Made by a program: the position numbers and the translations under genes
Notes under the pieces: model-generated
The model's database searches: none
Seen by the model: only the letters and a program-made list of their open reading frames with translations
Told to the model about the DNA's origin: nothing
Shown here: positions 43,372-61,582 of the stretch, one piece after another
Layout: every line of letters begins with the position of its first letter
Position numbering within the stretch: the stretch's first letter is position 1
Assembly: GCF_014268805.2 (NCBI RefSeq)
Contig: NZ_JABWRF020000001.1
Span: 62,001-126,000 of the forward strand
Length of the DNA: 64,000 nucleotides
Direction of reading: 5' to 3'
Source: Pseudomonas farsensis
GTDB taxonomy: Bacteria; Pseudomonadota; Gammaproteobacteria; Pseudomonadales; Pseudomonadaceae

Positions 43372-43482
43372 GTAGGAGCGGCCTTGTGTCGCGATGGGCT
43401 GCGAAGCAGCCCCAGCTATTCTGCATGAGGCACGAATCCTGGGGCCGCTTCGCAGCCCATCGCGACACAAGGCCGCTCCTAC
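43372..43482. repeat. REP pair, left part of a composite repeat
   Basis: 43372-43413 and 43441-43482 are reverse complements with one mismatch over 42 bases (family 'GGAGCGGCCTTGTGTCGCGA' plus 'GGGCTGCGAAGCAGCCCC'). A tail related to the 'GATTCCATGGTTT' element follows to 43524. The same order of parts recurs at 61427-61582. Confidence 0.88.
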
Positions 43483-44462: not shown

Positions 44463-45971
44463 TCAGGCCTTGTCGAAGGCCTGCCACCCACCACCGAGTG
44501 CCTTGTACAGGCCAACCAAGGCCTGAGAAACAGCCGCCGAGCTGTCGATCCACTGCTCTTCGCTGGCCAGCAGCGCCGATTGCACCGACAGCACGTTGAG
44601 GAAATCCACCGCCCCTTCCACGTACCGGCGCTGCGCGGTCTCAAGCGCGATACGGTTCTGCCGCACGGCTTCGGCCAAGTGGTCGCGGCGCAGCTGGCTG
44701 GCGTTGTACAACCGCAATACATCGTCGATTTCATGCCACGCCCCCAGCACCACCTTGCGGTAATTCAGCGCCGCTTCCTGCTGCTGCGCCTCGCGCAGTT
44801 GCAAGGTGCCCTTGAGCCGCCCACCTTCGAAAAGCGGCAGCGACAGTTGCGGGCCGAAGGCGAAGCGGCGCGAATCCCAGGCGCCGAAGTCCGACAGCTG
44901 CATGGCCTGAAAACCGACGCTGCCCGACAGCCGAATGCTCGGGTAGAAGTCAGCCTTGGCCACGCCGATACTGGCCGTTGCGGCATGCAACCGCGCCTCG
45001 GCCTGGCGGATATCAGGCCGGCGCTGTGCAAGCTCCGACGGCACGCCAATGGCAAAACGCTGCTGCGGCGCCGGCAGCTCGCCGCCTGGCTGCAACAGGC
45101 CCTGCAAACTACGCGGTGGCTCGGCAGCCAGCAGGCTCAGCGCGTTGATCAGGTCGTCGCGGCGGGCTTCAAGGCTGGGCAGCCGCGCTTCGATCGAAGC
45201 AACCTGGGCGCTGGCCTGGGCAACGTCCAGACGCGTGGCGACGCCTTCGGCCTGACGGTCTTCGGACAGTTTCAGGCTGTGCCGGGCCACCTTGAGGTTG
45301 TCCTCGGTCACCTGCAACGTATGCTGCACGGCGCGCAACTGGATGTAATCACCGGCGGTCTCTGCAAGCAGCGCAAGCAGCACGCCACGGCGGTCGTTCT
45401 CGGCCACCTCGACACTGGCATCGGCGGCCTCGACCTGGCGCCGCACGCGGCCCCAGAGGTCCAGCTCCCAACCGGCAACCAGGTCGCCCTGCCACAGGTT
45501 GTAGGCCTTTTTGCCCGCGTTGCCAGACGGGTCGTTCAAGCCTTGGGCACTGTTGCGGGCGCGGCTGTAGCCGGCGTCGGCATCCACCGAAGGCGCTTGC
45601 TCGGCGGCCACCGTGCCACGTATGGCGCGGCTTTGCAGCAGGCGCGCGCTGGCCATCTGCAGGTCGAGGTTGCGCTGGGCGACCTTTTCGATCAGGGCGC
45701 TGAGTTGGGCATCATGAAAGCCGTCCCACCAGCGCAGCTCCAACGGTTCGGCGACCGGCTGGCTGGCCGCGGCCTGGGCTTGTAGCGCGGCCCAGTTTTG
45801 CGGGGCCTGGCTGGCAGGGGATTGGAAGTCGGGGCCGAGGGTGCAGCCGGCGAGCAGTATGGGAGCAGCCCATGCGACCGCGATCCCTTGCAGGAGCGGC
45901 CTTGTGCCGCGAAAGGGCTGCGCCGCAGCCCCAGCAATCTCGGCACGATCACACATCCGCAGCCCACTCAT
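44463..45971 (-). CDS. NodT-family outer-membrane efflux lipoprotein, signal region contains a REP
   Basis: The 502-aa protein has lipobox 'ILLAGC' (Cys near residue 43) and two OEP repeats typical of OprM/NodT channels ('LSALIEKVAQRNLDLQMASA', 'FAIGVPSELAQRRPDIRQAE'). It would be the outer-membrane exit for the EmrAB pair upstream. The ATG at 45971 overlaps the adaptor stop (ATGA). No usable start exists between residue 6 and the lipobox, so residues about 14-28 ('AAAQPFRGTRPLLQ') must be translated from a REP palindrome at 45890-45932. The signal peptide is thus unusually long. Confidence 0.88.
   Translation of the reverse strand: MSGLRMCDRAEIAGAAAQPFRGTRPLLQGIAVAWAAPILLAGCTLGPDFQSPASQAPQNWAALQAQAAASQPVAEPLELRWWDGFHDAQLSALIEKVAQRNLDLQMASARLLQSRAIRGTVAAEQAPSVDADAGYSRARNSAQGLNDPSGNAGKKAYNLWQGDLVAGWELDLWGRVRRQVEAADASVEVAENDRRGVLLALLAETAGDYIQLRAVQHTLQVTEDNLKVARHSLKLSEDRQAEGVATRLDVAQASAQVASIEARLPSLEARRDDLINALSLLAAEPPRSLQGLLQPGGELPAPQQRFAIGVPSELAQRRPDIRQAEARLHAATASIGVAKADFYPSIRLSGSVGFQAMQLSDFGAWDSRRFAFGPQLSLPLFEGGRLKGTLQLREAQQQEAALNYRKVVLGAWHEIDDVLRLYNASQLRRDHLAEAVRQNRIALETAQRRYVEGAVDFLNVLSVQSALLASEEQWIDSSAAVSQALVGLYKALGGGWQAFDKA
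45890..45932. repeat. REP unit embedded in the coding start of the efflux lipoprotein
   Basis: 'AGGAGCGGCCTTGTGCCGCG' followed by 'AAAGGGCTGCGCCGCAGCCC' matches the REP family seen at 58291 and 61427, but lies inside the reading frame rather than in a spacer. It encodes about 15 residues ahead of the hydrophobic part of the signal sequence. Confidence 0.85.
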
Positions 45972-47029
45972 CGCGCACTCACCTCTTTGCCATCCACCAA
46001 ATCCCCCCCGGTGTCTATGGTCGCCTCCACCGACATACCCACCCGCAAGCGCTCAAGCAACGGCTGCCCATCATCGAAGACGATCTTCACCGGAATACGC
46101 TGCACCACCTTGGTGAAGTTGCCAGTGGCGTTGTCAGGCTTCACCGCCGCAAACGTCACCCCGGTGGCCGGGGCGATGCTCTGCACATGGCCGTGCAGTT
46201 TTTCACCCGCAAACGTATCGACGCTGATGCTCACCGGCTGCCCCGGCTGCACATGGGTCAGCTGGGTTTCCTGGAAATTGCCAACGATGTACGCCTGCGC
46301 CAATGGCACCACCGAGAGCAACCGCGCCCCCGGGTTTACATACGCACCAACGCGCAGGGCACGCTCGCCGACCATGCCATCCACCGGTGCGGTGATGCGG
46401 GTGTACGACACGTCCAGGCGCGCCTTTTCAAGCCCGGCCTCCGCGCGTTTGAGCTGGCCATCGGCGCTGGCAACCTGGGCGCTGAGCACATCCACCTGCT
46501 TGCGCGCCGCCAGCAGCGCCGCCTGGGTGTTGGCCAGCCGGGCGCGGGCCTGGTCGACCCGGCTGCGCGCTTGCTGGGCGTTCTGCACGGTGCCGGCGCC
46601 CTGCTCGGCCAGGCGGCTGTAGCGCCCGACTTCATGGTCGGCAAAGGCCACTTCAGCAGCCGCGGCGTTCACCGCCGCTTGCGCCTGGGCAATCAGCGCG
46701 GCCTGGCGATCCAAGGTAGCGCGGGCATCCAGGCTCTGCGCCTTGGCCACCAACAACTGCGCCTCGGCCGCATCGAGGGCGGCCTGGTAGTCGCGGGCAT
46801 CGATGGTGGCCAGCAACTGGCCGGCGCTGACCTGCTGGTTATCCTCAACCAGCACCTCCTTGATAAAGCCCGCAACCTTGGGCGCGACCACTGTGTAGTC
46901 GGCGCTGACATAGGCATCGTTGGTGCTCTGGTGGTGGTCGCTGCCAAACAGCCAGGGGCCGGCGATGGCGGCCAGCACGGCGACGGCGAGGACCGCGCCG
47001 ATAAACAGGGTTTTACGTTTCTGGGTCAT
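45968..47029 (-). CDS. EmrA-like membrane-fusion protein
   Basis: The 353-aa protein has an N-terminal span ('TLFIGAVLAVAVLAAIAGPW') and the EmrA/HlyD_D23 pattern: 'YVSADYTVVAPKVAGFIKEV', a coiled-coil hairpin (about 95-195), 'ITAPVDGMVGERALRVGAYV' and 'VVPLAQAYIVGNFQETQLTH'. It links the MFS pump to the outer-membrane lipoprotein. The ATG at 47029 is chosen because it gives the family start 'MTQKRKTL'; the frame upstream runs into emrB. Second gene of the three-gene pump operon. Confidence 0.92.
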   Translation of the reverse strand: MTQKRKTLFIGAVLAVAVLAAIAGPWLFGSDHHQSTNDAYVSADYTVVAPKVAGFIKEVLVEDNQQVSAGQLLATIDARDYQAALDAAEAQLLVAKAQSLDARATLDRQAALIAQAQAAVNAAAAEVAFADHEVGRYSRLAEQGAGTVQNAQQARSRVDQARARLANTQAALLAARKQVDVLSAQVASADGQLKRAEAGLEKARLDVSYTRITAPVDGMVGERALRVGAYVNPGARLLSVVPLAQAYIVGNFQETQLTHVQPGQPVSISVDTFAGEKLHGHVQSIAPATGVTFAAVKPDNATGNFTKVVQRIPVKIVFDDGQPLLERLRVGMSVEATIDTGGDLVDGKEVSAR

Positions 47030-47057
47030 TTTGCTTTTCTCGAATTCATCCACAGGC

Positions 47058-48581
47058 TCAGGCCACCGCACGGGGCGGGTAGACCCGGGTGGGCACGAAG
47101 GGAATCAGGCAGATCAGGGCAATGGCGATGCCCGCCATCACCAGGTAAAGGTCGGCAGAGGTCAGCACCAGGGCTTGGTCATGGATGCGCTTGGCCAGGC
47201 CCGCCGCGTGGTCATCCAGCAGCGGCGCATTGCCCAGGCTGTCGACCAGGTGGCTGGAATGAAAATGCCGGCGCAAGGTGCCAACGGCCTCGATCAGGCC
47301 ACCGGCAATCACCGCTGCCAGGCCCTTGACCGTGTTGAACCAGGCCGAGGCGAACGGGCCTTCCTGGGGGCTCATGCCGTTGGTCGAGAGCATTAGCAGC
47401 GGCAGCACTGCCATCGGCTGGCCGAACACTTGCAGCAGGTAGAACGGGTAGAAGTCGCCGCGAATCCACTGGGAGGTCAGCAGGCTGCTGCCAACGCACG
47501 AGGCCGCCAGCATGGCCAGGCCCACGCCGAGCACCCAGCGGCAGTCCACCGCGCGGATGTTGCACAGCGCAGCGGCCAGCGGCAGGGCGAGCAACTGCGG
47601 CATGGCCACCAGCATCATCAAGGGGCTGGTCTGCGCCGGGCGATAGCCGTGCAACTGGGCCAGGTAGGCCGAAGGAATGCTGGCCGTGCCAGACAGCACG
47701 ATCAGTACCCCGGCCAGGGTCAGCAAGGCAAAGCTCAGGTTGCGCCGCGACAGCATGCGCAATTGGAAGAACGGCAGCGGTTCGGACCATTCGTTGTACA
47801 GAAACAGCACCAGCAACAGCCCACCGCCGCCCAGCAACCAGCAGATCAGCGGCGAATCGAACCAACCCCAGCGGTCGCCCAGCGACAAGCCGAGCACGGT
47901 GCAACTGATGGCCGGCAGGCCCAGCAGCACGCCGCGCCAGTCGAACTGCTTGAAGCGTTCCAGGCGCAGAGGGTCCTGGGGCAGGCCCCAGGCGACGCAA
48001 AGCATCGCCAGCAGCGACGGCAGGATGATCTGCCAGAACGCCCACTGCCAGCCGACGTACTCGGTCCACAACCCGGCCAGCGGGGTGCCGAGGTTGGGCC
48101 CGAAGGTAGCGGTCAGGGCATAGCAGGCCAGGCCGTAGATCTTGATGCCTGGCGGCAGAAAGCGCAGCGCCACGCTCATCAGCATGGGCGGCAAGGCCCC
48201 GGAGGCGAAGCCCTGCAACACGCGCAGCAGCATCAGGCTGTGCAGGTTGGGGGCGAAGGGTTGCAGCAGGCCAAGCAGGGCAAACAGGGCCACCGCGCAC
48301 AGGGTGAAACGGCGCAGTGAAAAGGTGGTGGCCAACCACGGCGCAAAGGCCATGGCCGAGACCGAGGCTGCGCTGTAGGCGGCCAGCAGCCAGGCACCCT
48401 CATCGGCGCCGATGCCCATCGCGCCACGGATATCGTTGAGCGAAATCTTGGTCACAGACTCGTTGAGGCCGGCGCAGAGCACCGCCAGCAGCACGCCGAA
48501 CAGCCCCACCACCACCTGCAGGCCAAACGCCGCCTGCACAGGCGCAGCGGGCGCGGCAGAGGGTGTGGTCAGGGAACTCAT
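47058..48581 (-). CDS. DHA2-family (EmrB-like) drug:H+ antiporter
   Basis: The 507-aa inner-membrane MFS transporter has 14 predicted spans. Motifs include 'DEGAWLLAAYSAASVSAMAF' in span 2 and 'RVLQGFASGALPPMLMSVAL' in span 4 (motif C-like), as in EmrB/FarB. It would expel amphipathic or aromatic compounds with EmrA-like and NodT-like partners. It is the first gene of the emrB-emrA-nodT operon, and the LysR gene 306 nt upstream points the same way. Confidence 0.92.
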   Translation of the reverse strand: MSSLTTPSAAPAAPVQAAFGLQVVVGLFGVLLAVLCAGLNESVTKISLNDIRGAMGIGADEGAWLLAAYSAASVSAMAFAPWLATTFSLRRFTLCAVALFALLGLLQPFAPNLHSLMLLRVLQGFASGALPPMLMSVALRFLPPGIKIYGLACYALTATFGPNLGTPLAGLWTEYVGWQWAFWQIILPSLLAMLCVAWGLPQDPLRLERFKQFDWRGVLLGLPAISCTVLGLSLGDRWGWFDSPLICWLLGGGGLLLVLFLYNEWSEPLPFFQLRMLSRRNLSFALLTLAGVLIVLSGTASIPSAYLAQLHGYRPAQTSPLMMLVAMPQLLALPLAAALCNIRAVDCRWVLGVGLAMLAASCVGSSLLTSQWIRGDFYPFYLLQVFGQPMAVLPLLMLSTNGMSPQEGPFASAWFNTVKGLAAVIAGGLIEAVGTLRRHFHSSHLVDSLGNAPLLDDHAAGLAKRIHDQALVLTSADLYLVMAGIAIALICLIPFVPTRVYPPRAVA

Positions 48582-58232: not shown

Positions 58233-58314
58233 GGGAGGGCTTTGCCCTCCATCGCGACATAAGGCCGCTCCTACAAGGTCCTGCGCCACCTGTAGGAGCG
58301 GCCTTGTGTCGCGA
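58233..58314. repeat. REP pair with small hairpin
   Basis: 58252-58275 and 58291-58314 are reverse complements with one mismatch ('TGTAGGAGCGGCCTTGTGTC' family). A short 'GGAGGGCTTTGCCCTCC' stem precedes them. They occupy the spacer between the LysR gene and the reductase gene. Confidence 0.8.
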
Positions 58315-58380
58315 AAGGGCCGCACAGCGGCCCCGCTTTTCTGCCCGACTTCGTTCCCCGCCTTGCAGAGAAGCAGCCCG

Positions 58381-61426: not shown

Positions 61427-61582
61427 TGTAGGAGCGGCCTTGTGTCGCGAAAGGGCTGCGAAGCAGCCCCCAGGATCGAGCAACCACCAGAATCGCTGGG
61501 GCTGCTTCGCAGCCCTTTCGCGACACAAGGCCGCTCCTACACAATCAAAAGCGACTCGCCCGAAACCATAGAATCTCCCACA
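61427..61582. repeat. Composite repeat: perfect 44-bp REP palindrome plus tail element
   Basis: 61427-61470 is the exact reverse complement of 61498-61541 (27-nt loop). It is followed by 'ACAATCAAAAGCGACTCGCC' and the inverted 'TGTGGGAGATTCTATGGTTT' element ending at 61582. The same order of modules is found at 43372-43524. Further 'GGGAGCTGGCGACAGCC'-family arms lie at about 61360-61386 and 61624-61650. The 325-nt spacer 61351-61675 holds only repeats. Confidence 0.88.

Follow-up and report, generated by a model that had tools for sequence, protein, structure and literature searches.

REPs are defined as extragenic elements, and the gene described here offers a testable counter-example. In the window that we analysed (64,000 nucleotides of Pseudomonas farsensis), a REP lies within the open reading frame of a NodT-type outer-membrane efflux lipoprotein, ahead of the lipobox. 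This raises the questions of whether the REP is translated, how it came to be there and why the gene tolerates it. The reading that we hold with good confidence is that a REPIN inserted in an ancestor behind the stop codon of the upstream HlyD-type adaptor gene, that it would be translated from the ATG coupled to this stop, and that it would be cleaved off with the signal peptide.

The three genes of the efflux operon are encoded on the minus strand, starting with an MFS pump (47058-48581; PF07690) and continuing with the HlyD-type adaptor (45968-47071) and the NodT-type lipoprotein of 502 residues (44463-45971), which matches the Pfam family OEP (PF02321, E 5.7e-44) in two stretches. The first-pass annotation had placed the NodT start in an ATGA coupling to the adaptor, and the overlap bears this out: the TGA stop of the adaptor shares four bases, ATGA, with the NodT ATG (45968-45971, minus strand), behind a likely Shine-Dalgarno sequence, GAGGTGA (45979-45985, minus strand). 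GAGGT occurs within 20 nt upstream of the start in 171 of 186 distinct orthologues. The leader, MSGLRMCDRAEIAGAAAQPFRGTRPLLQGIAVAWAAPILLAGC, comprises on the minus strand a left flank of codons 2-13 that runs from the start codon to the REPIN remnant (45933-45968), the remnant itself (45873-45932, residues 14-33) and the remaining end of the ancestral signal, P-I-L-L-A-G-C (45843-45863), whose lipobox LAGC holds Cys43; in REP-bearing relatives the signal has endings such as LAGC, LSAC and LTAC. The signal is overlong, as had been claimed, with 42 residues before the cysteine against 15-20 in most putida-group orthologues read. A decayed gene is ruled out by the strong constraint on the mature part: across its first 300 codons, differences fall 408:210:1981 by codon position in those of 29 pairs (leader identity of at least 70%, equal length) that are more than 80% identical without gaps. 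Between the window and its relative L003 the mature part differs 43:16:151 by codon position, so the function is kept.

The REP itself is real. Its 22-base core, TTCGCGGCACAAGGCCGCTCCT, is found exactly at 45892-45913 and its outer palindrome, GGGGCTGCGGCGCAGCCC, at 45915-45932, together making a REP unit at 45885-45932 that is followed by a partial loop at 45873-45884, all on the minus strand. The core has eight matches in the window with up to three mismatches (100 shuffles: mean 0.00, largest 0) and, with up to two, a high copy number of 480 in the 5.25 Mb of its own genome (243 forward, 237 reverse), where a reversed control pattern has none. Copy number and shuffles thus rule out a single chance match, and a strain artefact or misassembly is ruled out by the presence of the same REPIN in the genomes of relatives. 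The first-pass annotation gave residues ~14-28 to the REP; a REP is indeed encoded there, but comparison with relatives holding the intact pair widens the extent to residues 14-33. The same genome has one match to Y1_Tnp, a possible RAYT transposase (37 bits, cut-off 23; G000:C2:211700-212020). Three more REP pairs occur in the window, at 43374-43480, 58251-58315 and 61430-61538, and these are apparently intergenic.

A lone REP inserted in one strain, as first proposed, does not describe this locus: the REP is instead the remnant of a REPIN common to relatives. The commonest leader is short, with 19 residues including the cysteine in 63 of the 186 distinct orthologues (e.g., MKPALRLSPLLLAVLMAGC). 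Long leaders of 38-66 residues are found in close relatives, namely P. mosselii, P. entomophila COR5, P. sichuanensis, 'Pantoea' sp. Cy-639, G025, G102, G258 and G370. Six loci of this set (L003, L004, L005, L085, L086 and L113) have both REP cores, and the inverted pair keeps the frame and separates the start codon from the old signal core; in L006 the second REP is degraded, and L114 retains the second REP only, the mirror image of the window. The old signal is complete behind the REPIN in L004 (PALHLSPLLLAVLLAGC) and L006 (PALRLGPMLLAMLLAGC), which places the insertion near the start of that signal. What the window genome has lost is its second REP along with the initial portion of the old hydrophobic core; both deletions preserved the frame. 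The comparison with orthologues that had been suggested as a check gave no refuting case: the similar N-termini are also built from REPs, and where the REP is absent the signal is either short or long and unrelated (as in L030 and L036). In the clade of the putida-type REPIN, which we call P, four of 13 tips (L115, L116, L024 and L164) have short REP-free leaders, so losses, recombination or several gains are required. Together these leaders provide a natural series in which the pair is intact, either REP is lost, both are lost, or none was ever inserted. Four loci, L030, L036, L097 and L098, have leaders of 39-43 residues without a clear REP origin (with a single weak core match in L097), and the NodT n-region seems to accept varied extensions.

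We propose the following history. An inverted pair of REPs would have inserted just behind the HlyD stop in the ancestor of the relatives resembling mosselii, entomophila and sichuanensis, and we infer that a RAYT transposase was responsible. Because NodT starts inside this stop, the place of insertion is the n-region of the lipoprotein signal. Translation would begin at the old coupled ATG and pass through the REPIN; since the old hydrophobic core and the lipobox come after it, signal peptidase II would remove the REP-encoded stretch before Cys43. Such a leader would need only an open frame without stops, its amino acids being nearly free. In the window genome, a later in-frame deletion would have taken the beginning of the old core together with the second REP, with the consequence that the REP-encoded RPLLQGIAVA would now be part of the hydrophobic region.

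The phenomenon is not restricted to the relatives of the window genome. Leaders derived from REPs of about three families make up 78 of the 186 distinct orthologues in this non-random sample from which identical sequences were removed: 60 of the type that we name FA, nine P and nine FB/FC, with 108 REP-free. A search with L074, whose leader has 61 residues, revealed them in the fluorescens group. It matched 143 genomes, of which 73 were read: 30 selected automatically, 37 in consecutive further rows, three chosen (G105, G128 and G112) and three read earlier (G101, G090 and G122), the last three having 17-residue leaders. A fluorescens-type REP occurs twice, inverted, in leaders such as MKIFVDRADAFASKPAPTVDRIPLWERACSRRGHQPRLTLSALLVLSLSAC, and its 22-base core matches 901 to 1954 places (up to two mismatches) in G049, G300, G088 and G210. 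A third kind of REP (GGCGAGGGAGCTTGC and variants) is present in nine leaders, and seven of these have pairs with the order reversed. Matches to its core number 185 to 518 in G382, G183 and G348, the genomes whose leaders bear it, and elsewhere 416 in G049, 51 in G300 and 0 in G025. The 75-residue leader of L077 has a remnant like this third kind (SKLPRH).

The fluorescens clade of 69 tips contains 68 REP-derived leaders (60 FA and 8 FB), a share that is not a random estimate because a REP-bearing query supplied part of the sample; the exception, L157, lies inside the clade and has lost both REPs. On the gene tree, built with FastTree only and with low supports within the fluorescens group, the state of the REP family changed at least 13 times. 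P and FA occupy distant clades separated by REP-free ones, and at least two insertions are thus the simplest reading, whereas the scatter of FB/FC among FA needs new insertions, replacement or recombination. Matches to the core regex with two mismatches are not specific alone (116 in 259,125 nt of mature sequence), and two assignments were made by hand: L097 as REP-free, with one weak match, and L075 as REP-bearing by eye, with no core match.

Is the REP translated? Among 219 loci with the gene, 217 have HlyD upstream and can be tested, the others being L147, at a contig edge, and L143, with a replaced neighbour. The NodT start codon overlaps the HlyD stop in all 217 (216 ATGA and one GTGA, in L198), and in all of them a single frame, free of stop codons, connects this stop with the lipobox, though selection by BLAST rank gives in-frame leaders a slight advantage. 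Among the 78 REP-bearing leaders, the n-part contains stops in none in frame 0, in 72 in frame +2 and in 18 in frame +1. When the observed substitutions were placed at random, a mean of 12.0 of the 29 pairs acquired a stop and none of 400 runs was stop-free; no stop was observed. Tree parsimony counts at least 37 changes of leader length among REP-bearing leaders (FA 28, FB 4, P 5), and all are multiples of three. Recombination could have inflated this count, but if only one third of these changes were independent, their pattern would still be very improbable had there been no frame to maintain.

The start is conserved as well. HlyD ends with the codon CGA in 166 of 186 orthologues, and this codon preserves the NodT ATG; in the genome sample described below, CGA accounts for 2.6% of 21,580 Arg codons and for 9 of 103 gene-terminal ones. 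GAGG is kept upstream of the start in 76 of 78 REP-bearing leaders. The absence of another start before Cys43, noted at first pass, stands: codons 7-42 contain no ATG, GTG or TTG, although the rare starts ATT, CTG, ATC and ATA do occur there.

What selection maintains in the leader seems to be the frame rather than the residues. Substitutions in the n-part fall 180:165:206 by codon position, indicating a near-free choice of amino acids and ruling out a conserved encoded peptide; in the last 17 codons before the cysteine they fall 81:64:134. Alone, the near-equal positions of the n-part would also fit non-coding DNA. We read them as a leader peptide whose letters are probably indifferent and whose frame matters, as expected of a signal n-region. 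The best hydropathy over nine residues has medians of 2.72 in P, 2.49 in FA, 2.61 in FB and 2.61 in REP-free leaders, with the window lowest of P at 2.13; by this prediction, a hydrophobic core is kept across REP-bearing leaders. Frame, length changes, lack of stops and conserved start are properties of the sequences themselves, and they place the REP inside the NodT ORF and not in an extragenic location. We conclude that the REP in the NodT leader is very probably translated.

The position of the REPIN relative to its upstream gene offers a simple account of why it became coding. We sampled 1.244 of the 5.25 Mb of the genome (59 stretches plus the window, after dropping one stretch that overlapped it). 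For the REP cores of 70 clusters, the median distance to the 3' end of a gene is 36 nt, with 70 of 101 no farther than 60 nt away, and the median distance to a 5' end is 138 nt, with 4 of 39 as close as this. Scored with a shorter core, 74 of 77 REP-bearing leaders have the beginning of their first core 24-69 nt past the HlyD stop. The NodT REPIN is thus ordinary relative to HlyD; only the overlap of the two genes makes it coding. This suggests a rule: when a REPIN lands behind a stop and the genes overlap, the N-terminus of the next protein absorbs it, and a cleavable signal tolerates it.

Among the 126 REP units of the sample, 121 were counted as intergenic, three extend over a gene end and two lie in weak short ORFs. 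The score-based gene finder sets the NodT start inside the mature part and hence counts the NodT REP as intergenic; open frames upstream of called genes were for this reason scanned separately. The scan gave 19 of the 126 units in such frames; judged by eye, all but NodT have an ordinary start past the REP. In the one unclear case, L240, a TTG brought by the REP might have begun a large gene, but this candidate was ruled out because an ordinary ATG follows. Gene callers should be cautious about trimming such starts.

The initial view that a REP in coding DNA is unusual holds for the window genome. NodT is, by judgement, the sole gene with a translated REP among the 126 units in 1.244 Mb, but intragenic REPs have already been published: the available part of PMC3733652 surveys intragenic GTAG REPs and REP dimers in ORFs of several species, including P. 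putida. As in that survey, our REPs lie inside an ORF, at its N-terminus as some of those do, and close to the 3' end of the upstream ORF. The same part of the survey suspects that most N-terminal REPs of P. putida reflect misannotated starts and are possibly untranslated; unlike these cases, the NodT leaders have evidence from frame, start and stops over 186 distinct orthologues that favours translation, and they recur in one gene. SBW25 REPINs of P. fluorescens, as described in the portion of PMC3116915 at hand, are likewise inverted REP doublets that form hairpins and reach high copy numbers, but they are primarily extragenic, with 14 of 1,067 copies of the commonest 16-mer overlapping genes.

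Other palindromes differ in further respects. Rickettsia palindromic elements resemble the NodT REPs in being mobile palindromes fused in frame with a host protein, but, according to the accessible text of PMC10969869, they occur in many unrelated genes and encode a conserved peptide. The NodT REPs reuse one gene position, and the peptide that they encode shows no conservation and would be removed by cleavage. A Rickettsia-like spread over unrelated genes was not seen, NodT alone being convincing among the 126 units in 1.244 of 5.25 Mb. E. coli REPs that affect translation (Liang et al. 2015, as summarised in the available part of PMC12306157) also lie shortly past an upstream stop, but their effect needs less than 16 nt from it, whereas the NodT core lies farther away in the 74 of 77 leaders and the REP itself would be translated. 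We found no published REP or REPIN in a signal peptide among the titles and abstract openings searched; NodT may be in the supplementary list of intragenic REPs of PMC3733652. As far as our searches show, the new elements are a well-supported, probably translated REP, its apparent recurrence with several families in one signal peptide, and a simple putative reason for its place.

A possible, if doubtful, alternative is that the fluorescens-group REPIN is retained as an RNA hairpin that tunes mRNA decay or translation between HlyD and NodT, the translated leader being its price. Four folded leaders (L087, L113, L192 and L139) lie 7.1 to 8.7 sd below shuffles, and an uninterrupted stem of at least 20 pairs is predicted in 45 of 60 FA, 5 of 9 FB and 4 of 9 P leaders and in none of the 108 REP-free genes. 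Across 19 FA leaders of equal length, the two REP halves diverge by 0.070 and 0.058, against 0.27-0.36 for flanks and spacer; mature third positions differ by 0.354 in the same leaders. In the stem, 98.6% of cells pair, and the covariation score (14 cells) was reached by none of 500 shuffles, but double-sided changes affect no more than two pairs, and 421 of the 500 shuffles reach that number. The hairpin is short in 12 of 60 FA leaders, and it is gone in the window, where one REP is left and the fold has a z of -0.19, which makes an RNA role there unlikely.

The conservation of the REP halves may have another cause. In 14 of 17 cases, counted by hand after leaving L155 and L185 (mixed second cores) out of the 19, the second REP of the leader is the commoner of the two variants in the genome; these include all nine genomes in which the other variant has at most four copies. 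As the leader follows the commoner variant, the conservation possibly results from homogenisation among REPs. The spacer motif, too, is present in other REPINs of the same genomes, which weakens the view of a spacer diverging neutrally in place. The pattern in the REP halves could be caused by selection on the hairpin, and it could also be caused by homogenisation.

A broader and rather doubtful version is that REPINs were co-opted in several Pseudomonas lineages for both purposes, as a signal extension that removes itself and as a maintained RNA hairpin that sets the ratio of adaptor to outer-membrane factor. If this were true, mobile palindromes would in general find a safe landing site in signal peptides behind overlapping stop and start codons.

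It is unlikely that some relatives use two starts, with the coupled ATG giving the long leader and the GTG of the second REP, preceded by its own AGGAG, giving a signal of normal length, in which case the REP would act as a movable translation start. The sequence AGGAGCGGCCTTGTG is in the frame of the signal in L085, L086, L113 and L114, with a near copy in L004, but the codon is GGG in L003 and L005, the second REP is deleted in the window, and the AGGAG sits in the predicted hairpin stem of the intact pair. In one orientation, the putida-type REP of the former four leaders (and, nearly, of L004) reads AGGAG, 7 nt, GTG and then an Arg/Lys-rich stretch. Judging from this arrangement, insertion of a REP could bring along a ready-made start site.

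The last alternative, that NodT starts behind the REP and the open frame upstream arose by chance, leaving the REP effectively extragenic, draws on the misannotation suspected for most REPs at the 5' end of P. putida ORFs (in the part of PMC3733652 available), on the neutral look of the n-part codon positions, on the in-frame AGGAG and GTG just described and on the 48 of 77 leaders that have some in-frame ATG, GTG or TTG after the first REP core, but it is very improbable given the stop-free frame and coupled start in all 217 loci, the GAGG kept in nearly all REP-bearing leaders, the stops predicted by the neutral simulation, and the window and 28 other leaders (29 of 77) that have no such codon at least 14 residues before the cysteine. 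After the last core, 66 of 77 leaders have no start codon, ignoring the GTG at the core end in L004 and L114; all these counts are rough, with cores taken at up to three mismatches. A downstream start may nevertheless be used in part of the leaders, for example among the 48.

Translation from the coupled ATG thus remains our preferred reading for the loci in which NodT follows HlyD. The locus L143 has another arrangement: the HlyD neighbour has been replaced by another gene and the frame of its REPIN leader is still open. By eye, only two candidate starts are seen past the upstream stop: a TTG that follows the first REP, and an ATG that precedes the cysteine by a few codons.
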